Positions 1 to 44,096 of a stretch of DNA of 44,500 nucleotides are shown here, piece by piece. The position numbers and the translations under genes were made by a program. The stretch is from a virus. The notes below the pieces were generated by a model. It made no database searches, was not told where the DNA came from, and saw nothing but the letters and a program-made list of their open reading frames with translations. The stretch lies in IMG/VR virus record IMGVR_UViG_3300025168_000167, positions 1 through 44,500 of that record; one strand, given 5' to 3'. Within the stretch, counting starts at the first letter, position 1; each line of letters starts with the position of its first letter.

Positions 1-1294
1 TATTTAAAGATTCGCCTTTACGCAAACAAGCCTTGATATAATTTTTATCTGACTCACTGACCTTTCCCAAGCCTTGATCCCACGGCAGACTATGTAGTAA
101 ACCGTGGTCTGTTCTTAAATCATTAAGGGAATAAAAATTCCCCTCTTCCCCTAACGGCATTGCTTTTTGCCCATAAGAAATTTGAACTCTTGATAACATC
201 TGCTTGTAGATTAATCTAACTTTTTCAGCTGTTATGCTCTCTCCTTTTAACAACAATCCCCATAACCTAACTGCTTCTAAAACATTATGATCTATACTTT
301 GTGAACTGTTATAGGAATACAAGTGACCCCTACGTCTTACTTCTTCCTCAATTTGACGCGCCCCACGGGTTGTCCTGCTTAACAATAACCAATCATTTTC
401 AGATAAATCTACTTCTTCTGAGTGACTATGCCAGTGTATTTGCCCTTCTTCATCCTTTGGGGCAAAAATCTTTTCACGCCTACCCACAATACGTTTTATA
501 ACCTGTGTAGAAAGCCTATGGTGACTAGCAGGTATACGGTAGCTTTTGTCTAATAGGGTTACATTACCTTTTAGCTCTACAAAATGTTTAACATCTGCTC
601 CTGCATACCGGAAGATAGCTTGGTCATCATCACCTGCTATGTAACATTCCTTACTGTTGTCAGCTAATTGCCTTACCATTTCCCATTGGATAGGACTAAG
701 GTCTTGGGCTTCATCTATAAACAACACCTCAAACTTAGGTGACAGTTCATGCTTTATAAAATACTCCAACATATCTGTGAAATCAAATAAACCAAAAGTC
801 TTCTTCCAATGGGTTAAACCACGGTCTACATAATCAACCCTAGACCAATCTGTTTTTAGCGGAACAGTGCTGTCTTTGTAAACCTGTTTGAGTGGTTGGC
901 GCAGTATACGGGAAATGTTAATTAACTCTAAGAACTTATCACCATAACCAAAATCTTTAAATGGTCCTTGTTCATTAGCACCACGCTCAATAAAAAAGTT
1001 TCCTACCTTTAACCACTGGGCAATTTCTTGGTACTGGGTCTCCGTTATTATTTGACTATGTGTCAGCCCCGCTTGTAGAAAAGCCAAGCTGTGAAGAGTT
1101 CTAAAGTAAGGGAGGTCTTTCTTTGATAGATGGAACCGCAAACAAGCCCTTTCTACAGCTTCGTTTGCGGCTCTACGTGTAAATGCGAAATAACCTATTC
1201 TGTCTGGTTCTACTCCTTTTTCTAAATAACTTTCTACTAAACTAAGTAACTTGGTTGTTTTCCCTGTTCCAGGAGGACCGAGTATAATCTTCAC
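1..1294 (-). CDS. UvrD/Rep-like superfamily 1 DNA helicase (3' end outside window)
   Basis: Partial minus-strand gene running off the left edge. The frame from a GTG at 1294-1292 is open to base 1 (about 431 codons). Near the N-terminus is a Walker A motif, GPPGTGKTTK, at residues 6-15. Further on are FAFTRRAANEAV (motif Ia-like), VLFIDEAQDLS (motif II) and GDDDQAIFRYAGA (motif III). These are the signature motifs of ATP-dependent 3'-5' SF1A helicases of the UvrD/Rep/PcrA type. The GTG shares one base with the TAG of the primase gene (TAGTG), and a purine-rich AGGGAAGAG lies just upstream. This indicates translational coupling within a replication operon. A role in phage DNA replication or recombination is inferred from motifs and neighbours. 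The C-terminal motifs V-VI are not in the window. Confidence 0.85.
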   Translation of the reverse strand, partial: MKIILGPPGTGKTTKLLSLVESYLEKGVEPDRIGYFAFTRRAANEAVERACLRFHLSKKDLPYFRTLHSLAFLQAGLTHSQIITETQYQEIAQWLKVGNFFIERGANEQGPFKDFGYGDKFLELINISRILRQPLKQVYKDSTVPLKTDWSRVDYVDRGLTHWKKTFGLFDFTDMLEYFIKHELSPKFEVLFIDEAQDLSPIQWEMVRQLADNSKECYIAGDDDQAIFRYAGADVKHFVELKGNVTLLDKSYRIPASHHRLSTQVIKRIVGRREKIFAPKDEEGQIHWHSHSEEVDLSENDWLLLSRTTRGARQIEEEVRRRGHLYSYNSSQSIDHNVLEAVRLWGLLLKGESITAEKVRLIYKQMLSRVQISYGQKAMPLGEEGNFYSLNDLRTDHGLLHSLPWDQGLGKVSESDKNYIKACLRKGESLN

Positions 1295-20242: not shown

Positions 20243-22715
20243 ATTGCTGCCCTACTAAGTCCTGGAACCTTTGTGCGCCCTGCCCCTGCAAGGCTCTGAC
20301 GTTACCATCTACAGGCGCATTGCCTCCGTATATTTCTCTGGACTGATACCACTGCTGTTGGTCTATAAGGTCTATATTGTACGCTTCAACACCTTCAACT
20401 CTACCCATTAGAAAAATAGTTAAAGACTGATCGTCAAATCCACCAGAGTCCTGCATTCCCTCTAGCTGTGAATCTTGAGCTTGCTCAATTTCTGCGTCAG
20501 TCATTGTTTGCAAGGCTGTTTCGGCACGTTCTACAGTACGGCTTTCGTTTACGCTTGGAGGCGCTACATCAAACTGACTAAAATCTGGAAGCTGGTTAGA
20601 CAAGAATTGCCCTATAGTCTGACCAGTTGCTATTGCGTCATTAAAATCCTGTTCAAACTTCATTTCTGTCACTGAGGCACTTAACTCTTGCATGACTTCA
20701 ACTTCTTCAGAAGATGTTTCTTCTGCCTGAGTAACTACTTGGTTAAAATTCTGTATTGGGCCGCTTGAAACAATGTCCTGTATAACCTCAATTTCTGGCT
20801 CAAAACTCCCAGTATCACCAAACACATCAGTTGACCCTCCACTATCCATGCTTTGCTGAATATCAGTCTGACCTAACTGGGCAAGTTGCACTGAACCTGA
20901 ATAGCCTGAATCAAATACAATACCTACCTCTGCCAGCGCTGTTGTCTGGGTTTCATTAATCGCTTCACTAGCAAAACTTGTATCAGTAAAAGTAGCTTCA
21001 GGTGTAGGTGTTATTGAAAATGTGCCTTCAGTAAAAGTCTGAGATATAACTTCTGTATTTTGCGCTGACCTATTACCAAACGTCTGGACAGACTGCGAAA
21101 CCGCTGCTTGGGAAACTGCACTTTGAGCTAAAGCAGTTGGCATAATAGAAGTCTCAGCAACAATACTTAACGCTAACTTAGTAATGTTTACTCTTGCTTT
21201 TTCTGGTTCTTCAATTTCTGGTACAAGTTCTTCTACTACAGCTACTTCCTCTACAGGCGCTTCAAGCTCTACTGTTTCAACTTCTTCTTCAAATATCTCT
21301 TCTTCAAATATCTCTTCTTCTACTGCTATCAATTCTTCTTCAAAAACCTCTTCAAAAACTTCTTCAAAAATCTCTTCAAGTTCTTCTTCAAAAACCTCTT
21401 CAATAATTTCTTCTGGTTCTTCAAAAACTTCTTCTATAACAACTACTTCCTCGTAAACTTCTTCAATAATTTCTTCTGGTTCTTCAAAAACCTCTTCAAT
21501 TACGGGCAATGAATTAGCCTCAAAGACTTCTTCAAAAACCTCTTCGATTATTGGCTCCCCAAAATTTTCCACTACTTCAACTACATATACAGGTTCTGGG
21601 TCTTCCCACCCAGGATTATCATCTACTATAGACCCCCCATAAGTAGTATCTACATCGCCATAATCTATGTCATCGACTACAACATCTACTGTGTAATAAT
21701 CAACTAAATCGTCATCATCAACAAAATAGTAATCAGTTACATCGTCACCATCTATTACGTCTGTATAGTCATTAGTCACAGTTGCTACAAAAGTTGCTTC
21801 CCAGTATCCATCACAAGAAGCATCATAGGTAGCATCCAGCCCACATTGCTGAGATAAATAAGCGGCTGCGTAACCAGTACAACTTGAGTTATATAACGCA
21901 CTAATACCACATTGTTGAGCTAGATAAGCTGACGCATAACCAGAACAGGCAGAATCATATAAGGCGCTGATACCGCATTGCTGCGCTAGGTAAGCGGCTG
22001 CATAACCAGAGCATGACGTACTGTACAGCGGATTAGCATTACATAACTCAGTAAGAGAAGCCGAATACAGTGACCCACCACCCTCCAGCACATTCCCGGT
22101 AAAGCTTGCATCAAAAGAGTCCCAGTTATTATGCCCTCCTGTACCGTCATCAAAATACCTAAAAGTCTTATGTGATGAGCTAGTATGTTGTTCTCCAATT
22201 AAGACATCATGGTTAATAATATCTAAAGCTCCATAGCGGTATTCGTAAGTGTCATTTTCCCAAAGAATAGCCTCAAAGTTATTGTTACCTCTATGGTTGG
22301 GATAGCTGTACTCTTTCATGCCGTACCAGCCAAACACCACATAATCACTAAAAGACTTAAACAACATCTTGGAACTGTTATTACGAATTAAATCAGTCCA
22401 AAAGGGGTAAAGCGTTTCATCCCTATACGGCAGAGGTTGAGGGGTGTAATCATTGCAAGTAAGACCTGAGAAGTTGACACAGCCATTTGTAGACATTTTT
22501 GCCTTTCTGTAAGTATTTCCCCAAATTTCAAAATCAAACCCAAAGTCTGGACTCCAGCCTGAGATGCAGTCATCACAGGCGTTCATGTTGGTAGTGCCGG
22601 ACATTCCTGACAGGTTTATAAGCGCCTGAGAACCTTCGTAGATATACGTTGTAGGGTCGCTTGTACTCGCGCTGTAGGCGTAAGAACAAAAGAGGAGTGG
22701 TATTAGCCATTTCAT
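20232..22715 (-). CDS. Secreted multi-domain protein with NIDO-like, cysteine-repeat and acidic regions
   Basis: An 827-aa protein with a signal peptide (KWLIPLLFCSYAYSAS). Residues 30-205 contain FWTDLIRNNSSKMLF, YVVFGWYGMKEY and YGALDIINHDVLIGEQH, a pattern like the nidogen (NIDO) extracellular domain. Three near-identical 22-aa cysteine repeats follow (SGYAAAYLAQQCGISALYD type, about 230-300). Next comes a very acidic Glu/Val/Phe repeat stretch (EEVFEEPEEIIEEV, about 375-490), then a Gln/Ser/Thr-rich tail. Export across the inner membrane is unusual for a virion component, so it may act on the host envelope or surface. It overlaps its neighbour by ATGA. Function unknown. Confidence 0.65.
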   Translation of the reverse strand: MKWLIPLLFCSYAYSASTSDPTTYIYEGSQALINLSGMSGTTNMNACDDCISGWSPDFGFDFEIWGNTYRKAKMSTNGCVNFSGLTCNDYTPQPLPYRDETLYPFWTDLIRNNSSKMLFKSFSDYVVFGWYGMKEYSYPNHRGNNNFEAILWENDTYEYRYGALDIINHDVLIGEQHTSSSHKTFRYFDDGTGGHNNWDSFDASFTGNVLEGGGSLYSASLTELCNANPLYSTSCSGYAAAYLAQQCGISALYDSACSGYASAYLAQQCGISALYNSSCTGYAAAYLSQQCGLDATYDASCDGYWEATFVATVTNDYTDVIDGDDVTDYYFVDDDDLVDYYTVDVVVDDIDYGDVDTTYGGSIVDDNPGWEDPEPVYVVEVVENFGEPIIEEVFEEVFEANSLPVIEEVFEEPEEIIEEVYEEVVVIEEVFEEPEEIIEEVFEEELEEIFEEVFEEVFEEELIAVEEEIFEEEIFEEEVETVELEAPVEEVAVVEELVPEIEEPEKARVNITKLALSIVAETSIMPTALAQSAVSQAAVSQSVQTFGNRSAQNTEVISQTFTEGTFSITPTPEATFTDTSFASEAINETQTTALAEVGIVFDSGYSGSVQLAQLGQTDIQQSMDSGGSTDVFGDTGSFEPEIEVIQDIVSSGPIQNFNQVVTQAEETSSEEVEVMQELSASVTEMKFEQDFNDAIATGQTIGQFLSNQLPDFSQFDVAPPSVNESRTVERAETALQTMTDAEIEQAQDSQLEGMQDSGGFDDQSLTIFLMGRVEGVEAYNIDLIDQQQWYQSREIYGGNAPVDGNVRALQGQGAQRFQDLVGQQYER
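21280..21580. repeat. Glu-rich imperfect repeats, coding
   Basis: Imperfect repeats of TCTTCTTCAAAAACCTC-like sequence on the plus strand encode EEVFEE units on the minus strand in the secreted protein. Boundaries are approximate. Confidence 0.75.
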
Positions 22716-24004
22716 CTACATCTTCCCCCACGGGGCTGACAGTTGCGCCTGTTGTTTGGTCTGCTTTCGTTTTCTGCTAATTCTTCTTCTTCGGCTGTGT
22801 CCCACGCAATTTGAGCTTCTGCTCCAATAAGCCCCTCGTAAGGGCAGGGCGTTCCTGCCATTCGCATAGCGTCAAATACTCGTTCGTCCTGACACATCAA
22901 GCTAACCGCAGCTACGCGCATACCCATGTCATAAAGCGTTTTGCCTAACTTAATTCTTTCACAGTTTTCATCTGTAATAGACCTGCCTCCAGAAAAGCCG
23001 AATAACTGACTTTGCACAGCACCGGATATGCCAGTAGTACAAAGGTCTTGCGAGTAACTAGAGCCAATGCTTGGCGCTATTGCGCTAGGCGGTGGTGACT
23101 CTATCCGTTGAGTGACTCTCTGCGTTGATGTGTTGTTGCTAGTATTATTATTAGTGTTGTTTGAGGTGTTGTTAGCATTACTGCTTATTTCACTAGTGCT
23201 TTGTGAGATATCTGTTGAACTACTAACATTAGTGTTTGTGTTGTTGCTAGTTGAGTTCTGAGTGACGTTACTCGTATTTTCATTGACGTTATTTGAATTG
23301 CTGGTGTTATTTATCGTTGATGTATTGGTGTTGTTACTAACGCTGCTATTGTTTGATGTTGAATTGCTAGTTGAATTATTAGTATTTGAATTGTTAGCAG
23401 TGACAGTAGTTGAGTTCTGATTCACGTTTAGGCTACTGTTATTATTGGTATTATTTGACGTATTTACATTGGTGTTATTTGAAGTGTTATTACTGGTTGA
23501 ATTGTTAGTGTTGTTTGAAACATTAGTGTTGTTTGACGTATTCTGATTAGTATTTAGATTAGTGTTGTTTGATGTATTGTTAGTGGTGTTGTTGTTTATA
23601 TTTGAGTTATTAGCCGTAACCGTGGTGGCGTTCTGATTAATATTCAGGCTGCTATTATTGTTAGTGTTTACGTTATTTGAGGCGCTATTGGTTGTAACAT
23701 TAGATGTATTGAGATTAGTATTTTCATTTACTGACGAACCAGTGTAATTAGTTGTGTTCTGGTTGGTATTAGCATTTGTACTACTCGAAGTATTTACATT
23801 ATTTGAAGTCGAAGTATTTGTGTTTAGATTTGTGTTGTTTGATACGTTGGTAGTGCTGGTAGTATTGAGATTGGTGTTTGTTGTGGTGGTCGTGCTGTCA
23901 GACGTAATATCCGTATTATTATTAGTGTTTACGTTAGTAGTGGTAGTCTCTTGGGCAAACACGGGAGAAGCCATTAGTAATAAGATAAAAAAGAATTTTT
24001 TCAT
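22712..24004 (-). CDS. Secreted Asn/Thr-rich protein with conserved cysteine C-terminus
   Basis: A 430-aa protein. It has a signal peptide (MKKFFFILLLMASPVFAQ), then about 270 residues that are nearly all Asn, Thr and Ser (NNTNLNTN-type units). The C-terminal domain of about 110 residues has six to seven cysteines and conserved blocks: GFSGGRSITDENCERIKLGK, MGMRVAAVSLMCQDERVFDA and MAGTPCPYEGLIG. The domain looks globular and disulphide-bonded. The ATG at 24004 is chosen over a GTG one codon earlier because GGAGGGGG lies 9 bases upstream. It probably works with the secreted protein 20232-22715, whose start overlaps its stop (ATGA). I recall this C-terminal pattern in marine phages but no function for it. 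Confidence 0.65.
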   Translation of the reverse strand: MKKFFFILLLMASPVFAQETTTTNVNTNNNTDITSDSTTTTTNTNLNTTSTTNVSNNTNLNTNTSTSNNVNTSSSTNANTNQNTTNYTGSSVNENTNLNTSNVTTNSASNNVNTNNNSSLNINQNATTVTANNSNINNNTTNNTSNNTNLNTNQNTSNNTNVSNNTNNSTSNNTSNNTNVNTSNNTNNNSSLNVNQNSTTVTANNSNTNNSTSNSTSNNSSVSNNTNTSTINNTSNSNNVNENTSNVTQNSTSNNTNTNVSSSTDISQSTSEISSNANNTSNNTNNNTSNNTSTQRVTQRIESPPPSAIAPSIGSSYSQDLCTTGISGAVQSQLFGFSGGRSITDENCERIKLGKTLYDMGMRVAAVSLMCQDERVFDAMRMAGTPCPYEGLIGAEAQIAWDTAEEEELAENESRPNNRRNCQPRGGRCR

Positions 24005-24007
24005 CAC

Positions 24008-37209: not shown

Positions 37210-39590
37210 TACTTGCCTTTAGTTCTCTGTATCGCAGTGTTGTTACGCATTACAGCAATGTCTTCTGTGCTGCTGATTCTTCTGTTTTGTATTTCCATGT
37301 TTCTGGAATTTTTCTCTTCTTCAAACTGCAACCGTTGACTATCGTACATTTGGTCTGCTTTTTGATCTTGTTCTTTAAGATCTAACTCACGCTCTTTAAG
37401 AGCAACAAGTGGGTCATCAGAAGCAGGATCATCTTGTGGTAAACTCGCTTGATATTCTTCTATTAACTGGCCTTGTATTTGAGCAACTAAATCAGCCATT
37501 TGGTTTTCGTCTTGAATACCCATCTGTTGGGCTTGTTGTTGCGCTATTGTTTCGGCCTGTAATCCCAAATGCTCATAGATGTGTTTTTCTAAAGTAAGCA
37601 ACACTTCTACTTGTTGTTGCGCTATACCACTTTGCATATAGGCAGTGTGTACTTTGATGTGAGCAGTATGGTCTTGTTCCGGAAATGCCTTCAACTCACC
37701 CTGTCCCCGAGCTGCATTACTAGCATCTTGGTTTTCTTGAGCAGGGCTAATAGGCTCTGGAATAGGTTGTGGTTTCAAAATCTCGTCTACATTTTGTACA
37801 CCCAAAGCACTATAAACTCTACGGTATGCCTCATACATATTGTGCATGGCAGGGTCAGCCTGTGCTAACTGTAGCTGTTCTTGTGCAAGCACTACACGTT
37901 GGGACATACTAAAAATATTAGGATCACTTACTGGCAGTATATCTATGCGCTCATCAAAATCTTCAGACTTGACTTCTCTATCTACATCTACTTCATACGG
38001 ATAAGGAGTTGGGTCTTCTGAGTAAAGTTTAGCCAGCATCTTCAACTCAATTTTCATACTGGCATAAAGACGTTTATGAACAGCACTAACAATACGACTA
38101 CCACGCTCTAGTAATGCAATAGTTGTGCCGACAGGTGCTTCTTGATTTCCGTCGCCCACACCTATGTCGGTAGTACCTACAAACCTTTGAGCTGCGTCAA
38201 CTACATAACCCATCAAATTAAACAGTGTGCCGCTTGGTTCTTTGTAAGGCAGGGGCAGCAAACTACTTTGCAAATCCCCTCCTGGAACGTCTATGTCCCG
38301 CCACTCTCCGGGATTCAACGGTGAGCCTTGGTCACTTATGCGTAAACCACGCGCCTTAAATCCTGCGGGTAAATTAGCCAGAGTTCCTGCATCAACCAAC
38401 TGGCGCAATGTGCTAGTAGCTGTACGGCTAAGATTACCTAACAAATGCACCAGTCCAAACCCGTAAAAACCTGTTCCGGGAGTAAACCTGTATTGCACAA
38501 AATAAGGAATTCTTTGTTTAAGGGGGTCTTCTTCCGAGTAGTTACGGCTTATACGCAACACCGTGTTCATGTCATCACAGACCGTAACTATGTACGGTAA
38601 CTTGATACCCGTAGGTTCCCCTTGTTCGTCTTCATCTGGGTATTCTTCTAAATCCAAATAACAATGGCATTCGTATATGGTTAGTTCTTCGTCGGGACCA
38701 GTACGTTGTACACCTTCCATTTTGTCATATTGTTCTTGGATCTGGCTGTAGTCTTGTGTACTGGTTTCCGTTATATCGATGTCTTCATAAAAACCATTGA
38801 GCTGCATTTTGCGTAACTCATTCCGCGACATTTTTAGAATATGAGTCAGGCGTTCTGCTGATCTAACATCTGTAGCAGAATAAGGCACTAGCACATCTCT
38901 GGCCTCAATAAACTTACTTACTGGTTTTTGTAAAATATCATCGTAGTAAACTTTTTTGAACGCACTACCCGCCAACCCTAGGAAATACAGCATCTGGTCG
39001 AATTCTGCTTCGTATTCTTCCATACCATACATAATCTGGTAGTTCATGTACTCTTGTACACGTCTGGCCTGTTTTTCTGTTTCGGGGGTGGCTTTGCCTA
39101 CTATCTGTGCATGAACCGGACCGCTACTGGGCAAAAGTTCTTTGTAAGCACCGCTTTGAAATTGTGTAACCGCCTCATTCAACAAGGGGTGAGTAACACC
39201 CGTAGCACCTATGAACGGTTGGGTTTTGTTTTCGTAACGCAAGCCTAGTAACTTGAGGCCTTTGGTGTAGGCTTCAGACCATTCACTGCGGCTACTCTTG
39301 TCTTCTTCGACATTACTTAGGACATTAGATTTTATTTTATCTAAAGTTTGTTTTTCTAATCCGGACACCAAGTTACCGAAAAACTCTACAGGGGCAACGG
39401 GTTCTTCTATTTCTTCCTGCGTTATTTCTTCTTCGGTCTCTACTACTACCGTGGTTTCTTCGTCGCCTTGACCAGCCTTCAATTCGTCTTCGGAAATTGC
39501 AAACCCTACTTCTTCCTCAGTCAAACCGCCCAACGGGGCTTGCACCAAACCACGGTCTACGTTACTTGGTCGAAAAGTATTTTCTGCCAT
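37209..39590 (-). CDS. Portal protein (P22-like)
   Basis: A 793-aa protein. An acidic N-terminal extension (to about residue 65) precedes LSNVEEDKSSRSEWSEAYTK, YENKTQPFIGATGVTHPLLN and QSGAYKELLPSSGPV (about 90-155), then VFDQMLYFLGLAGSAFKKVY, typical of large podovirus portals. The long helical, Gln-rich C-terminus fits the barrel of P22 gp1-like portals. It is immediately downstream of the large terminase gene (TAATG overlap). It forms the DNA channel at the unique vertex. Confidence 0.88.
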   Translation of the reverse strand: MAENTFRPSNVDRGLVQAPLGGLTEEEVGFAISEDELKAGQGDEETTVVVETEEEITQEEIEEPVAPVEFFGNLVSGLEKQTLDKIKSNVLSNVEEDKSSRSEWSEAYTKGLKLLGLRYENKTQPFIGATGVTHPLLNEAVTQFQSGAYKELLPSSGPVHAQIVGKATPETEKQARRVQEYMNYQIMYGMEEYEAEFDQMLYFLGLAGSAFKKVYYDDILQKPVSKFIEARDVLVPYSATDVRSAERLTHILKMSRNELRKMQLNGFYEDIDITETSTQDYSQIQEQYDKMEGVQRTGPDEELTIYECHCYLDLEEYPDEDEQGEPTGIKLPYIVTVCDDMNTVLRISRNYSEEDPLKQRIPYFVQYRFTPGTGFYGFGLVHLLGNLSRTATSTLRQLVDAGTLANLPAGFKARGLRISDQGSPLNPGEWRDIDVPGGDLQSSLLPLPYKEPSGTLFNLMGYVVDAAQRFVGTTDIGVGDGNQEAPVGTTIALLERGSRIVSAVHKRLYASMKIELKMLAKLYSEDPTPYPYEVDVDREVKSEDFDERIDILPVSDPNIFSMSQRVVLAQEQLQLAQADPAMHNMYEAYRRVYSALGVQNVDEILKPQPIPEPISPAQENQDASNAARGQGELKAFPEQDHTAHIKVHTAYMQSGIAQQQVEVLLTLEKHIYEHLGLQAETIAQQQAQQMGIQDENQMADLVAQIQGQLIEEYQASLPQDDPASDDPLVALKERELDLKEQDQKADQMYDSQRLQFEEEKNSRNMEIQNRRISSTEDIAVMRNNTAIQRTKGK

Positions 39591-41059
39591 TAGTAGTATA
39601 CTCGCTCTTTATTGACGGGAGTTTCGTCTTCGTAATCTTCGGGGTGGGTAATAAAGCCGCCTTCTCTAAAGCGACGCAATGCTTGAGTTACGGTGTCTAC
39701 GTAATCATCGTGCTCTCCGGCAGGAAAAGCTCCACACTCTTCTACTACCTCTTCTGCCCACCTCGTATCCGGCGACCATACTAACCCACTTTCAAATAAT
39801 GGGGCAATGGAATTAACCCTGCTGTGTTTGTCGTTACCTCGGCTTGGAGTGTAATTTGTCACTGGTATACCCATGTTGCGTAACTCTTGCGTTAGCGGCA
39901 TACCACTTGCCTTTGCTTCTATTAACACCAGCTCTGGGTCCCAATATCTAAACTCTTCCATTGCTATGCGTCTTAACTCCGGAAAATCCCATCTTCCACG
40001 CTTTGCATCCACTAGAATAATGTTTGGGGGGCTGTCTTCCGTAGGATAAAAAACACCCCATGTTGTTATAGCACTGTAGTCGGCAGACTCTTTTTTACTA
40101 AACGCTGTGTCATAACTCTGCATTATGTAGACTAATTCTGGTATAGAAGGGGCTTCCCACTTTTGCCACCACTCACGTTTTAATATTGCACTTACTTCAC
40201 TGGTTGGGTTCTGCTGCCACTGGGCTTCCCACTTGCCTACGGTCAAACTACCCTTTACAGCTAACAAATCAGACTTGTTCCAAAACTCCGGCCACATGGG
40301 TTTATCATCTGGCATTAAAGCAGGGAACTCTACTATTTCCCATTTGTCCGCTAAGATATCGCGGCCTTGTTGTTTTATCAACTTGCCTGTTAAATCATTA
40401 TCTGCCCAGCGGGTCATTACTATTACTATACTGCCTCCGGGTTGGAGCCGTTGGCGGGGTCCACTTGTATACCACTCGTAGGCATTTTCTAATGCACTTG
40501 GGCTTAGGGCATCTTGCTCACTGTGGGGGTCATCTATTATTAGCAAATCCGCACCGCGCCCCGTTACTGCACCACCCACACCTGCCGCAAAATATTCACC
40601 ACCACCACTGGTCTCCCAACGTCCGGCAGCTTGGCTATCGGCTCGCAACGTAACATTCTCAAATATACGTCTGTATTCATCACTGTTCATAAGGTTACGC
40701 ACCTTACGGCCAAATCTAAACGCCAACTCCGCTGTGTGCGTTGTCTGCATTATCTTCAACTTAGGGTCACGCCCCATCATCCATGCGGGTAACATATAAC
40801 TGGCAAACTCACTTTTAGTATGGCGGGGCGGCATATTAATAATCAACCGCTTTATCTCACCCTTTGCCAATCTGTCAAACTTATCTGCCATTATCTTATG
40901 GTGGTAACCATTTATAAACTCAGGCCACGCCAACTGCACAAAGTCCATAAACCCTGTGCGAGCCTTTGCAGACGTCTTTATTAAGTTAGCTCTTTCTAAC
41001 AAAGCAGCATAATTCTTTAGCCGCTCTTCTGGGATGGTCAATAATTGATCAGTGCTCAT
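39590..41059 (-). CDS. terL: Terminase large subunit
   Basis: A 489-aa protein from MSTDQLLTIPEE. The frame is open to 41107, but the extra 16 residues are atypical and the ATG at 41059 fits the family better. ATPase motifs are INMPPRHTKSE (residues about 74-84, Walker A variant) and LLIIDDPH (about 172-179, Walker B with catalytic acid). Nuclease motifs are MQSYDTAFSKKESADYSAIT (first Asp), LVLIEAKASGMPL and HDDYVDTVTQALRRF. It packages DNA and cuts concatemers. It is separated from the small subunit by the 2-kb module at 41227-43109. Confidence 0.93.
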   Translation of the reverse strand: MSTDQLLTIPEERLKNYAALLERANLIKTSAKARTGFMDFVQLAWPEFINGYHHKIMADKFDRLAKGEIKRLIINMPPRHTKSEFASYMLPAWMMGRDPKLKIMQTTHTAELAFRFGRKVRNLMNSDEYRRIFENVTLRADSQAAGRWETSGGGEYFAAGVGGAVTGRGADLLIIDDPHSEQDALSPSALENAYEWYTSGPRQRLQPGGSIVIVMTRWADNDLTGKLIKQQGRDILADKWEIVEFPALMPDDKPMWPEFWNKSDLLAVKGSLTVGKWEAQWQQNPTSEVSAILKREWWQKWEAPSIPELVYIMQSYDTAFSKKESADYSAITTWGVFYPTEDSPPNIILVDAKRGRWDFPELRRIAMEEFRYWDPELVLIEAKASGMPLTQELRNMGIPVTNYTPSRGNDKHSRVNSIAPLFESGLVWSPDTRWAEEVVEECGAFPAGEHDDYVDTVTQALRRFREGGFITHPEDYEDETPVNKERVYY

Positions 41060-41226
41060 ATTCTCATAATATATCGAAAATTTTTTTAGGACAATGAACC
41101 TAACCAATAGTCAGTGTTTTAGGGGGGTAGGTATTTAATAATTTTTACCTACCTGTAGATTCGTGGCAATCACTATACCCACACCCTTACGGGTATGGCT
41201 ATTATGTCTCAGGGGGGGTGCGCGTC
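41060..41226. other. Leader region of the terL block
   Basis: This stretch has no gene. It holds a hairpin (41126-41153) of eight pairs, GGTAGGTA with TACCTACC, and a second, weaker inverted repeat around ATACCC-GGGTAT (about 41176-41198). I see no strong sigma70 promoter. Confidence 0.5.
41126..41153. other. Perfect 8-bp inverted repeat upstream of terL
   Basis: GGTAGGTA (41126-41133) and TACCTACC (41146-41153) with a 12-base AT-rich loop. It may be an operator or a weak attenuator for the terL operon. No T-run follows on either strand in the position expected for a terminator. Confidence 0.5.
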
Positions 41227-41290
41227 TAAAGTGTTACAAGTGGCACTTTAAAAAGGTGCCAAGTACCTTTTATTAGTTTATTACAGGCAA

Positions 41291-41323
41291 CAAAAAACCT
41301 GCTAGTTATGTAAACCTAGCAGG
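41291..41323 (-). terminator. Terminator of the GA-free gene
   Basis: CCTGCTAG (41298-41305) pairs with CTAGCAGG (41316-41323). On the minus strand the stem is followed by six T (complement of 41292-41297). It lies 28 bp past the stop of the gene at 41352 and contains no GA or TC. Confidence 0.85.
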
Positions 41324-41351
41324 CCGCTTTGTAAAAGTTTTAAGGTAGCTG

Positions 41352-41915
41352 TTACTTAATAGTAACAGCTGGTTTAACTACCAATTGTACTAAGGGCTTG
41401 CCAAAAAACGCATGCTTTTTGGTTGCGCTATTAGTACCGCTTAGCAACATGCAAAGTGTATTACCACTTGCAATGTTACCCGTAATAATTTTACCACCAC
41501 TTGCGGTAACTGCTTTGGCTATAACGCCAAGGTTATTGCTTGCACCATTGCCGCCAATAGTTGCAAGTTGCATTGTTTTAAATGCCTTGCGCTTATTGGT
41601 TGCTATAGTGCTGGCTTGCACACCTTGCAAGTAGCACTGTAACTGGTGGCCGCGCGTACCAGTGTTAGTGCAAAACATGCCACTTGCATGCTTAACCCAA
41701 TTAGCTGGCGTAATGCCTAAACTAATAAAGTAAGCAGTAGGCTGCACAATAATATTGGCTAAGCTACCCGCTGCATGCTTAGCAGCAAATTGCGCTACAC
41801 TTGCGCCAGTACACCAACCGCTAGTAGGTGCTATATATACAGCACCTGCATTTAAGTTGGCTATGCCAGCTGTTTTAACAGTGCTGGTCTTAACTGTATT
41901 TTTACCTTTTTGCAT
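41352..41915 (-). CDS. Unrecognised protein A, encoded without GA/TC and lacking all acidic residues
   Basis: A 187-aa basic protein that I do not recognise. From residue 18 it aligns without gaps to the diverging gene at 42370-42945, 123 of 170 identical by hand. The most conserved block is SGMFCTNTGTRGHQLQC with two cysteines. A third cysteine lies in NTLCMLLSG. It contains no Asp and no Glu, and each of the six acidic positions of the sister protein is replaced (D to Q, E to A, E to A, D to Q, D to G, E to Q). All Ser codons are AGT or AGC and all Gly codons are GGT or GGC. A Shine-Dalgarno GGGA sits 7 bases before the ATG. No signal peptide or membrane helix. Its own promoter region and terminator suggest a stand-alone unit. 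Function unknown. Confidence 0.75.
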   Translation of the reverse strand: MQKGKNTVKTSTVKTAGIANLNAGAVYIAPTSGWCTGASVAQFAAKHAAGSLANIIVQPTAYFISLGITPANWVKHASGMFCTNTGTRGHQLQCYLQGVQASTIATNKRKAFKTMQLATIGGNGASNNLGVIAKAVTASGGKIITGNIASGNTLCMLLSGTNSATKKHAFFGKPLVQLVVKPAVTIK

Positions 41916-41961
41916 AATATTTTCCCGTGTGTTTATTTACAAAGCAGGGTTATTTAACCAT

Positions 41962-42006
41962 TTAACACTTATTAACACAAGCAATACTGGTGTTAAATTG
42001 TGTTAA
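41962..42006. promoter_or_regulatory. Operator-like array with 10-bp period upstream of gene A
   Basis: TTAACAC occurs at 41962-41968 and 41972-41978. Its inverse GTGTTAA occurs at 41990-41996 and 42000-42006. Each pair has a 10-bp period, one helical turn, and the two pairs face each other around 41984. The array lies 47-91 bp upstream of the ATG of gene A and looks like a cooperative repressor or activator site. Confidence 0.65.
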
Positions 42007-42147
42007 ATTGTAACAAAAACACTGGTTATTTATACAGTATAAATACTAGTAATATATAAAAAGCAATTAATATAAGCATGCCCGTACATTACGGCAGCGA
42101 GTAGCGAAGAGTTAGCACAAGATGTTTTCAGCCAGGATCAGCTAAAA

Positions 42148-42177
42148 GAGACGAGACGAGACGAGACGAGACGAGAT
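42148..42177. repeat. GAGAC pentanucleotide tandem repeat
   Basis: Five perfect GAGAC units (42148-42172) followed by GAGAT. It begins 50 bp after the GA-free cassette ends, a sharp change from zero GA to a GA-rich array. The 5-bp period puts alternate units on the same DNA face. Confidence 0.85.
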
Positions 42178-42272
42178 GACTAGATTATACTATGTATATG
42201 AGTATATATACCCATACTGCATAAACTCTAGTCTTTTCTTCTCCGGGTAGGGATCCCCTCTCTAGGTAGGAA

Positions 42273-42369: not shown

Positions 42370-42945
42370 ATGGTTAAATCAAACAACACAGCAACGCCAA
42401 AATCTGTAAAAACTTCTGGCACTACCGTGAAAATAGCAAACCTGAATCCTGGTGCTGTTTACACACTTCCTAAATCTGGTTGGGCAACAGGCAGTAGCAT
42501 TTTGGATTTCGCTACTAACAATGCTGCGGGTAGTCTGGCCAATATAACTGTACGGCCTACTGAGTTTTTTAATTCATTAGGCATTAATCCAAGCAATTGG
42601 GTTAAGCATGAGTCAGGTATGTTCTGCACCAATACAGGGACTCGCGGTCACCAACTGCAATGTCCTGTTTTTGGTGTACAAAAATCCACCATCGCAACCA
42701 ACAAAAGCAAAGCCTACATGAAAATGGATCTTGCAACAGTTGGTGGTAAGGACGCAAGCTTTAACCTTGGAGTTATTGCTACGGCAATCAAGGCGTCCGG
42801 TGGGAAAATCACAACTGGTAATGTAAAGACTGGGAATACTCTTTGCATGTTGTTGTCAGGTAGCAACACCGTTCACAAAAAGCATGCCTTTTTCGGCAAG
42901 CCTTTAGTGGAGTTAGTTGTTACACCAGCAGTCAAAATCAAGTAG
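42370..42945 (+). CDS. Unrecognised protein B, sister of the GA-free protein A
   Basis: A 191-aa basic protein starting MVKSNNTATPKSVKTSGTTV. The ATG at 42370 is chosen because GGGAC lies 7 bases upstream and matches the start of protein A. An in-frame ATG 32 codons earlier would fall upstream of the TATAAT box. It shares the CTNTGTRGHQLQC block and the C-terminal HAFFGKPLVELVV with A. It has normal codon use (mixed TCN and AGY serine) and six acidic residues. It has its own promoter, 5' hairpin and terminator, and transcribes away from gene A. No known domain, signal or membrane segment. The conserved Cys/His residues could bind metal, but that is speculative. Confidence 0.75.
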   Translation: MVKSNNTATPKSVKTSGTTVKIANLNPGAVYTLPKSGWATGSSILDFATNNAAGSLANITVRPTEFFNSLGINPSNWVKHESGMFCTNTGTRGHQLQCPVFGVQKSTIATNKSKAYMKMDLATVGGKDASFNLGVIATAIKASGGKITTGNVKTGNTLCMLLSGSNTVHKKHAFFGKPLVELVVTPAVKIK

Positions 42946-43109: not shown

Positions 43110-43535
43110 TTATTTCTTCTTCTTCTGCGAAAGAATAAAGTCTAGCATCCCCTCCCAATCATAAGGCTTAACTGACTCCCAGTCAGGGGTCAACTCTTCT
43201 TTCCTATCTCTTGTTGGTCCAATGTCCATTGCCCTCTCTTCTCCTCTAAATATATTTATAGAGTTAGAGGAAGGATGACCAACAAGGTTTAAGACACACC
43301 CTGATTTCCCACTATATCTTATTTGCCACGCTATTTGATGTGGGCTGAGATTTACATATTTAAGGGACTTTAAGCTGTGAAGCTTGAGTTCTAACCAAAA
43401 GGGGAATCCGTCAACGATGCCATGACAGTCTGGTATTCCAGGAGTAGCCCATGACTCTAACCTTGTCCAAAACACGTCACAATGCTTTGTACCATCACGG
43501 AGTTGTTGCCATAATTTACTTTCCGGCTTCTTCAA
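43110..43535 (-). CDS. VRR-NUC-like nuclease / Holliday-junction resolvase-type protein
   Basis: A roughly 141-aa protein from a TTG at 43535 (preceded by GAGGGCGAGG). An ATG at 43592 would give 160 aa but overlap terS by 77 bp. TRLESWATPGIPDCHGIVDG then FPFWLELKLHSLK has the PD-(D/E)xK layout: E in RLE, GIPD with catalytic Asp, and ELK. SPHQIAWQIRYSGKSG follows as in the VRR-NUC family. It is cotranscribed with the small terminase subunit. It could resolve branched DNA before packaging or nick DNA. Family assignment is from motifs. Confidence 0.7.
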   Translation of the reverse strand: MKKPESKLWQQLRDGTKHCDVFWTRLESWATPGIPDCHGIVDGFPFWLELKLHSLKSLKYVNLSPHQIAWQIRYSGKSGCVLNLVGHPSSNSINIFRGEERAMDIGPTRDRKEELTPDWESVKPYDWEGMLDFILSQKKKK

Positions 43536-44058
43536 CCTCGCCCTCAATAAGCACGTTCCCCTCACCAACCGCAGCCAAGGCAGGGTATTCATCGTGTAGT
43601 TTCTGGATCTCTTTCCATACTTCTTCTTTACTCATTGAGTCAATCTTTCCATGTAGGATTTCTTTACGCTCAATGTATAATCCAGCAGCTTGGCCTCTGT
43701 TTTTCTCGGCAGCTACGGCAGCAGCATAAGATCCTTCATTCATAGCTAGGTCTCTAATTTCAGCTAGTTTTCTTACGTGGCTTTCAAAGCTAACCTCGTA
43801 TTTTTGGGCTAACTCTTGTTTTACCTCATGCACCCTAACAACAACGTGCGGATAGTGTGATCCATTAAGTAGCTGTGACGCTATGGCGTGTGCTGATTTC
43901 TTGGAGTATCCAGCCCGTACCGCTGCTTCAGTTTGGCTTACGTCCTCACAACAGTAAATCCTTACAAATTCTTCTTGTTTAGGTGTGATCTTTTTTTCAG
44001 TGCGGGGGTTAGCTACGACTTCAAGTTTTGGTTTGTGCGTTCTTTTAGCTAGTGGCAT
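43516..44058 (-). CDS. terS: Terminase small subunit
   Basis: A 180-aa protein from MPLAKRTHKPKLE. A nine-residue longer start (44085) would overlap the promoter-like element, so 44058 is preferred. KKITPKQEEFVRIYCCEDVS, QTEAAVRAGYSKKSAHAIAS and then a helical oligomerisation region (FESHVRKLAEIRDLAMNEGS) match the Terminase_2 family with its helix-turn-helix DNA-recognition start. It binds the packaging site and partners terL. It overlaps the nuclease gene by 20 bp. The separation from terL by the A/B module is unusual. Confidence 0.85.
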   Translation of the reverse strand: MPLAKRTHKPKLEVVANPRTEKKITPKQEEFVRIYCCEDVSQTEAAVRAGYSKKSAHAIASQLLNGSHYPHVVVRVHEVKQELAQKYEVSFESHVRKLAEIRDLAMNEGSYAAAVAAEKNRGQAAGLYIERKEILHGKIDSMSKEEVWKEIQKLHDEYPALAAVGEGNVLIEGEVEEAGK

Positions 44059-44065
44059 GAAATTA

Positions 44066-44096
44066 ACTTTACTATATAGACCCATTTTTGAAAAGT
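44066..44096 (-). promoter_or_regulatory. Promoter-like element, copy P3 (leftward)
   Basis: On the minus strand, ACTTTTCAAAAATGGGT is followed by CTATATAGTAAAGT. The last 14 bases equal those of P1 (4667-4680). It lies 7 bp upstream of the terS ATG, which would make the transcript nearly leaderless if CTATATAG is a -10. Confidence 0.7.

Follow-up and report, generated by a model that had tools for sequence, protein, structure and literature searches.

In this marine phage and its relatives, the dinucleotides GA and TC are almost absent from a stretch that has the extent of a whole transcription unit. The depletion is selected and conserved, it affects one member (F) of a pair of paralogous genes and leaves the other (N) unconstrained, and it co-occurs with a cassette for thymine hypermodification. 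To our minds there is an even chance that thymine is hypermodified at TC in these phages and that F is kept free of TC and GA, and hence readable from modified DNA. The window analysed here, 44,500 nucleotides of the IMG/VR record IMGVR_UViG_3300025168_000167, comes from a large set of marine bacterial viruses that are kin of SAR11 phages. As read from its sequence, the block comprises an entire transcription unit, made up of a sigma70-like promoter, the small gene F and an intrinsic terminator. The features of this region are as follows.

39590..41062, minus strand: terminase large subunit gene (TerL), the next gene after the block.
41206..41218, minus strand: C-tract followed by GAGAC (CCCCCCC-TGAGAC), near the TerL-side edge of the block.
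41226..42098, no strand assigned: GA/TC-free block (0 GA, 2 TC), defined by dinucleotide counts and kept in relatives.
41292..41323, minus strand: intrinsic terminator of F, a CCTGCTAG/CTAGCAGG stem and then a T run, read from the sequence.
41352..41915, minus strand: F gene, encoding protein A of 187 aa without Asp or Glu; of the two gene copies from a new family of small proteins, this is the GA/TC-free one.
42036..42066, minus strand: candidate sigma70-like promoter of F (TTGCTT ... TATACT), a weak match read by eye.
42147..42179, no strand assigned: repeats of GACGA (TCGTC), rich in GA/TC, immediately beyond the opposite edge of the block.
42370..42945, plus strand: N gene (protein B), the paralogue of F with normal GA/TC content (about 80 per kb; 82 in the reading frame).
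43516..44085, minus strand: terminase small subunit gene (PF03592).

At the window's own rate, about 88 GA/TC would be expected in the block and 2 are seen (Poisson P(<=2) about 3e-35). Its two GA/TC-free runs, of 663 bp (41225-41888) and 176 bp (41923-42099), are the longest of the window, the next one reaching 70 bp. Both exceptions are TC, one at 41923 in the Shine-Dalgarno sequence and the other at 41888 at a codon junction (AAG-ACC). Our recount agrees with the initial annotation, which had reported no GA and two TC at 41227-42098, abrupt ends, which are indeed sharp on both sides, and a Shine-Dalgarno sequence as one of the exceptions. Its description of the codons also holds for protein A, in which serine is encoded only by AGY and glycine only by GGY, and Asp and Glu are absent altogether. 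The codons ATC, TTC, GTC, CGA and AGA are all missing from F. When protein A was recoded synonymously 5000 times with the codon usage of the window, the GA/TC count averaged 30.5 and did not drop below 16, compared with 1 in the actual gene. What that first reading had missed is the adjoining paralogue with normal GA/TC content.

To place the block in context, we gathered 80 related viral contigs from IMG/VR via the terminase large subunit. Most relatives of at least about 72% identity with enough upstream sequence have a GA/TC-free run of 500-1086 bp just upstream of TerL, and the G+C content of the blocks ranges from 29 to 63% across relatives. There is no block upstream of TerL in relatives at 63-66% identity, and the named phages HTVC027P, HTVC023P, 023Pt_psg01 and DSL-LC04 have neither a block beside TerL nor N or F. 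The genome records scanned contain a single block each, and the rest of the genome has about 100 GA/TC per kb. G018 harbours one chance-sized low-GA/TC stretch elsewhere, with no block beside TerL and no N or F. All strong blocks carry F, except those of L048 and L049, whose ORFs fell below the family HMM threshold. The N/F phages group together in a single clade of the terminase tree (17 rows; support 99/98), within which the leaky and relaxed cases are nested. The earlier proposal of a symmetric, double-strand DNA constraint acting over the whole transcription unit is supported, and this constraint is conserved in relatives.

N lies about 270 bp from the block, and the N and F proteins of the window are 69% identical. 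With a family profile of the small protein, almost all phages with sufficient flanking sequence proved to have two copies, and a second search, seeded with the N copy, added 100 contigs, 84 of which have two or more matches. The 117 N/F pairs include some contigs present in both search sets, and near-identical phages were left unmerged. In all 117 pairs, the N copy is normal, with 66-155 GA/TC per kb (median 113). As for the F copies, 85 of the 117 have at most 20 GA/TC per kb (zero in 37), 5 have 21-45 and 27 have 46-100. As N is normal in every pair, GA/TC-free DNA is a requirement of one locus and not of the family as such, and the constraint tracks this locus and not the gene family.

The N/F family has no significant match by sequence in Pfam, PHROGs or PDB, and a tblastn search of 50,697 records found no named phage with N or F. 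The AlphaFold model of the F protein has a pLDDT of 83.9, and another model of the family reaches 88.7. With the latter, the only model compared by fold, the best Foldseek E-values were 0.9 in PDB and 1.4 in BFVD. N and F thus form a small-protein family without detectable relatives despite confident models. We rejected a candidate cellular relative of N, since the sole match, a leuD-like gene in a Rhodobacteraceae MAG, was a false hit. Between the small terminase gene and the N/F pair lies a small nuclease/helicase-like gene (43110-43592, minus strand; PHROG 2165, 93) that is conserved with N/F and whose product resembles a VRR-NUC nuclease by eye. Farther away, a gene in the tail region (22712-24007, minus strand) encodes a protein that consists largely of Asn/Thr/Ser repeats (NNTSNNTNVN...) and whose C-terminal part corresponds to PHROG 20531.

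A comparison of the window's F with that of L004 yielded a dN of 0.19 and a dS of 1.03: F is under purifying selection and has stayed GA/TC-free past synonymous saturation. Relative to less depleted homologues, the TC sites lost from F were replaced by TT (45), TA (45), GC (41), AC (28), CC (27) and TG (24), with 17 kept. As lost TC sites became all other dinucleotides, selection must be invoked rather than mutation bias or an artefact. Both bases of TC change, which argues against a deaminase-like bias, and the replacement spectrum does not show the dominant TC to TT substitution of deaminase or RIP-like hypermutation. This rules out a deaminase or mutational scar and leaves the deaminase envisaged in the initial annotation without support. 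The same holds for its suggestion of a missing TC-type CRISPR PAM, since PAM avoidance is ruled out by the presence of one affected place per genome. The concern that the depletion might be an assembly artefact is dispelled by L003, a second contig of this phage that comes from a different sample and shows the same block with a few N, so that it cannot be the product of one assembly, and by the blocks of relatives. We found nothing in favour of mutational bias or artefact as an explanation; dozens of divergent relatives over the whole G+C range share the block, and we consider this possibility refuted, with a negligible residual probability. In leaky blocks, ATC and TTC are avoided most and GTC least. 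Such a graded TC context is as expected of an enzyme, and codon composition contributes too.

The F promoter is clearer in relatives than in the window (TTTACA-N17-TATAAT). On the TerL side, the block stops just past the F terminator, and a C-tract with GAG recurs at this edge in many relatives. On the other side, the GA/TC-free edge upstream of F crosses a membrane-protein ORF in several phages, and the block edge is therefore not set by gene borders. Among 28 strongly depleted units, 27 GA/TC remain in 20,127 bp, most of them towards the upstream edge; coding sequence accounts for 6 of the 27 and Shine-Dalgarno positions for 3. Of 37 N promoters, 28 have TC or GA in the -10 box, which reads TACTCT in 26, as compared with 3 of 23 F promoters; these counts required a TTTACA or TTAACA -35 box and a TANNNT -10 box, and identical upstream sequences were merged while related phages were counted apart. 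The idea that the N and F promoters are the strongest sigma70-like promoters of the genome was not supported, the F promoter being unremarkable by score. As the exemption spans promoter to terminator, its likely beneficiary would be the transcription of F from modified DNA.

Two observations concern the flanks of the block. Outside its upstream edge, the DNA is often GA/TC-rich, with 136-156 per kb versus 93-106 in L011, L018, L032, L036, L037 and L057, and 152 in the window; these flanks contain short repeats in places, e.g. TCGTC or GTCAA, and other phages have no such excess. Between the block and TerL (41062-41226), the window and its relatives share conserved motifs, namely a second C6 tract, AGGTTCATTG and AAAATTTTCGATATA, which could represent a TerL promoter or a replication or packaging signal.

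Among the genes that the block phages have in common and the outgroups are missing are those for a 5-hmdU DNA kinase helical domain (HMUDK_hel PF18723, E 2e-51) and a thymidylate-synthase (TS) homologue. By profile search, HMUDK_hel was found in 22 of 32 related records (E 6e-41 to 1e-55), and also in G002 and G004, and the TS homologue (PF00303), a candidate dUMP hydroxymethylase, in 24 of 32. Both are present in every examined N/F record of 50 kb or more, and the same type of search detected no HMUDK_hel in G018, HTVC027P, HTVC023P, 023Pt_psg01 or DSL-LC04. Between the HMUDK_hel and TS genes, a fixed slot contains an exchangeable module, as seen in marine phages (L250-L262 and the genome records). 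Its variants are a GT1 glycosyltransferase, a GT-like protein of about 340 aa, or a TET-associated glycosyltransferase (TAGT; PF20691, E 5e-17) with a radical-SAM protein. TAGT is the enzyme that, in T6-type phages, attaches a second sugar to cytosine already modified (PMC13390438). The P-loop 5-hmdU DNA kinase HMUDK_HMUD1, detected in the control YuA, was found in none of 18 relatives, and the slot neighbouring HMUDK_hel is filled by a glycosyltransferase-type module. The absence of the P-loop kinase makes a glycosylated 5-hmdU likelier than the bases of M6 or ViI, and the modified base is probably 5-hydroxymethyl-dU carrying a sugar; a modified C within TC is a possible alternative. A near-constant member of the cassette is a DUF932 protein (L139:3124-4149), located beside a family of about 200 aa. 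In the window, the following feature is relevant.

2..1294, minus strand: helicase gene cut by the contig end, which in relatives lies shortly upstream of the thymine-hypermodification cassette (best match G001, 76%).

As the contig ends inside this helicase, which precedes the cassette in relatives, the window neither shows nor lacks the cassette. The presence of the cassette in every long relative supports one of the causes listed in the initial annotation, a base-modifying activity that prefers the two-base step TC/GA, and modified T in the phages M6, ViI and phiW-14 has been inferred to lie in TG/TC (PMC6449724). A bulky T modification has been shown to stop ordinary DNA polymerases (PMC9023294). 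The co-occurrence of cassette and block is that of a single clade, for which shared ancestry alone could suffice.

It is tempting to propose the following scenario, in which we infer the TC context of the modification, the hindrance of transcription and the role of the protein. A hypermodified thymine would be placed on the T of 5'-TC-3' on either strand, genome-wide. F, from which TC and GA are excluded between a point ahead of the promoter and one beyond the terminator, would carry no modified base in virion DNA. It might thus be the only gene on modified DNA that is legible to the RNA polymerase of an unadapted host. Its transcription would most likely come first after injection, and its product, or the later, unconstrained paralogue N, would then make the remainder of the modified genome usable. 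Neither N nor F was found outside cassette-bearing phages, which suggests a role for them in the use of modified DNA. The main difficulty for this explanation is that 27 of the 117 F copies are relaxed despite the same enzymes. The initial annotation had named homologues with normal GA/TC content in close relatives as evidence that would count against it: these relaxed copies do in part point that way, but those placed on the tree branch from within the clade of block phages. Relaxed F copies (46-100 per kb) occur despite the cassette in the genomes that could be checked for it, G005, G022 and G025-G028. HMUDK_hel and GT are 93-96% identical between G039, which is depleted, and G025, which is relaxed, indicating that depletion can vanish without much change in the enzymes. 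In relaxed lineages, the modified template may be tolerated by the lineage or by the host. No other forbidden motif emerged among 2- and 3-mers in the block-less G005, L007 and L008, with a weak depletion of ATC in L007 and L008. Relaxed F copies occur only with the GT1 module (6 of 13 versus 0 of 9, Fisher P 0.046), a comparison confounded by ancestry, and we set aside module type as a weak candidate for the switch between depleted and relaxed states.

Other explanations have to be weighed against this one. The location of the block between the small and large terminase genes keeps a packaging role in play: the terminase, or a modification-sensitive packaging step, might need a pac zone without modified TC or GA cut sites. 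The TerL-side edge is often 145-165 bp from TerL, with the C-tract-GAG motif, and GA/TC-rich repeats adjoin the block in several phages. However, the edges of the block track the promoter and terminator of F, its distance to TerL varies from about 120 to 682 bp, strong blocks carry F apart from the two cases below the HMM threshold, and terminase relatives without F have no block; we thus find a packaging zone unlikely. Alternatively, F might be a spare copy shielded from an enzyme, of the host or encoded by a phage, that attacks GA/TC (a nuclease, a nickase or a double-stranded DNA deaminase); the shield would keep a counter-defence gene readable during the attack on the rest. The existence of two copies, one of them shielded, and the symmetric constraint over the whole unit would fit, but the remaining genome, at its usual GA/TC density, would not survive such an attack, no enzyme of this kind was found and there is no deaminase scar. 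The co-occurrence with the thymine-modification cassette needs no attacking enzyme, and this account also seems improbable to us.

A broader alternative is a constraint on F expression at the DNA or RNA level that involves no base modification, for instance through a silencing protein that binds GA/TC. Strictly, the data reveal a constraint on a transcription unit and not its chemistry, which leaves room for such a mechanism. Nevertheless, an RNA-level cause would not limit GA and TC alike and would leave bases beyond the transcript unconstrained, and the co-occurrence of HMUDK_hel and TS would be a coincidence of ancestry. We consider it rather unlikely.

If F does remain readable from DNA hypermodified at TC, this would represent a new principle of phage expression, combining a modification-free 'starter' unit for the unadapted host polymerase and an ordinary paralogue in whose own promoter the motif is common (as a TACTCT -10 box). 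We advance this generalization tentatively, at somewhat less than even chances. No such block occurs in the scanned stretches of YuA, PaMx11, Sonora and MW2, which are relatives by HMUDK_hel. A two-base step forbidden to the point of Asp and Glu loss is an extreme sequence-level constraint, and it is kept across a diverse clade of marine phages. The block would be a genome-readable footprint of DNA modification in viruses without isolates, suggesting a TC context ahead of the chemistry. It also makes it possible to test how a virus with chemically altered DNA has its first gene read.

Among known systems, the 5-hmdU kinase pathway of M6/YuA, ViI and phiW-14 resembles that of the block phages in having HMUDK_hel and a TS homologue near DNA polymerase A, and TC is one of its two inferred contexts, TG and TC (PMC6449724). 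The block phages differ by the absence of HMUDK_HMUD1 and the presence of glycosyltransferase modules instead, while YuA-type phages have no motif-free gene in the stretches scanned. By terminase, PolA, primase and structural genes, the block phages belong to the same broad group as HTVC023P-type pelagiphages, and a TS and aG/PT-PPlase1 pair has been reported in some clades of that group, in an account whose part relevant here makes no mention of dinucleotide content, terminase-side blocks or an N/F pair (PMC9599517). Unlike the block phages, the isolates HTVC023P and HTVC027P have no cassette, N/F or block. The 7-deazaguanine modification of phage CAjan is reported in the contexts GA and GGC. 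The first of these is likewise a two-base context involving GA, whereas GGC is common in F, with 9 GGC glycine codons. Finally, the avoidance of restriction sites in phage genomes is also a selection against a short motif. In contrast to that avoidance, it is a single transcription unit that lacks a 2-bp motif here, and its paralogue in the same genome has it.
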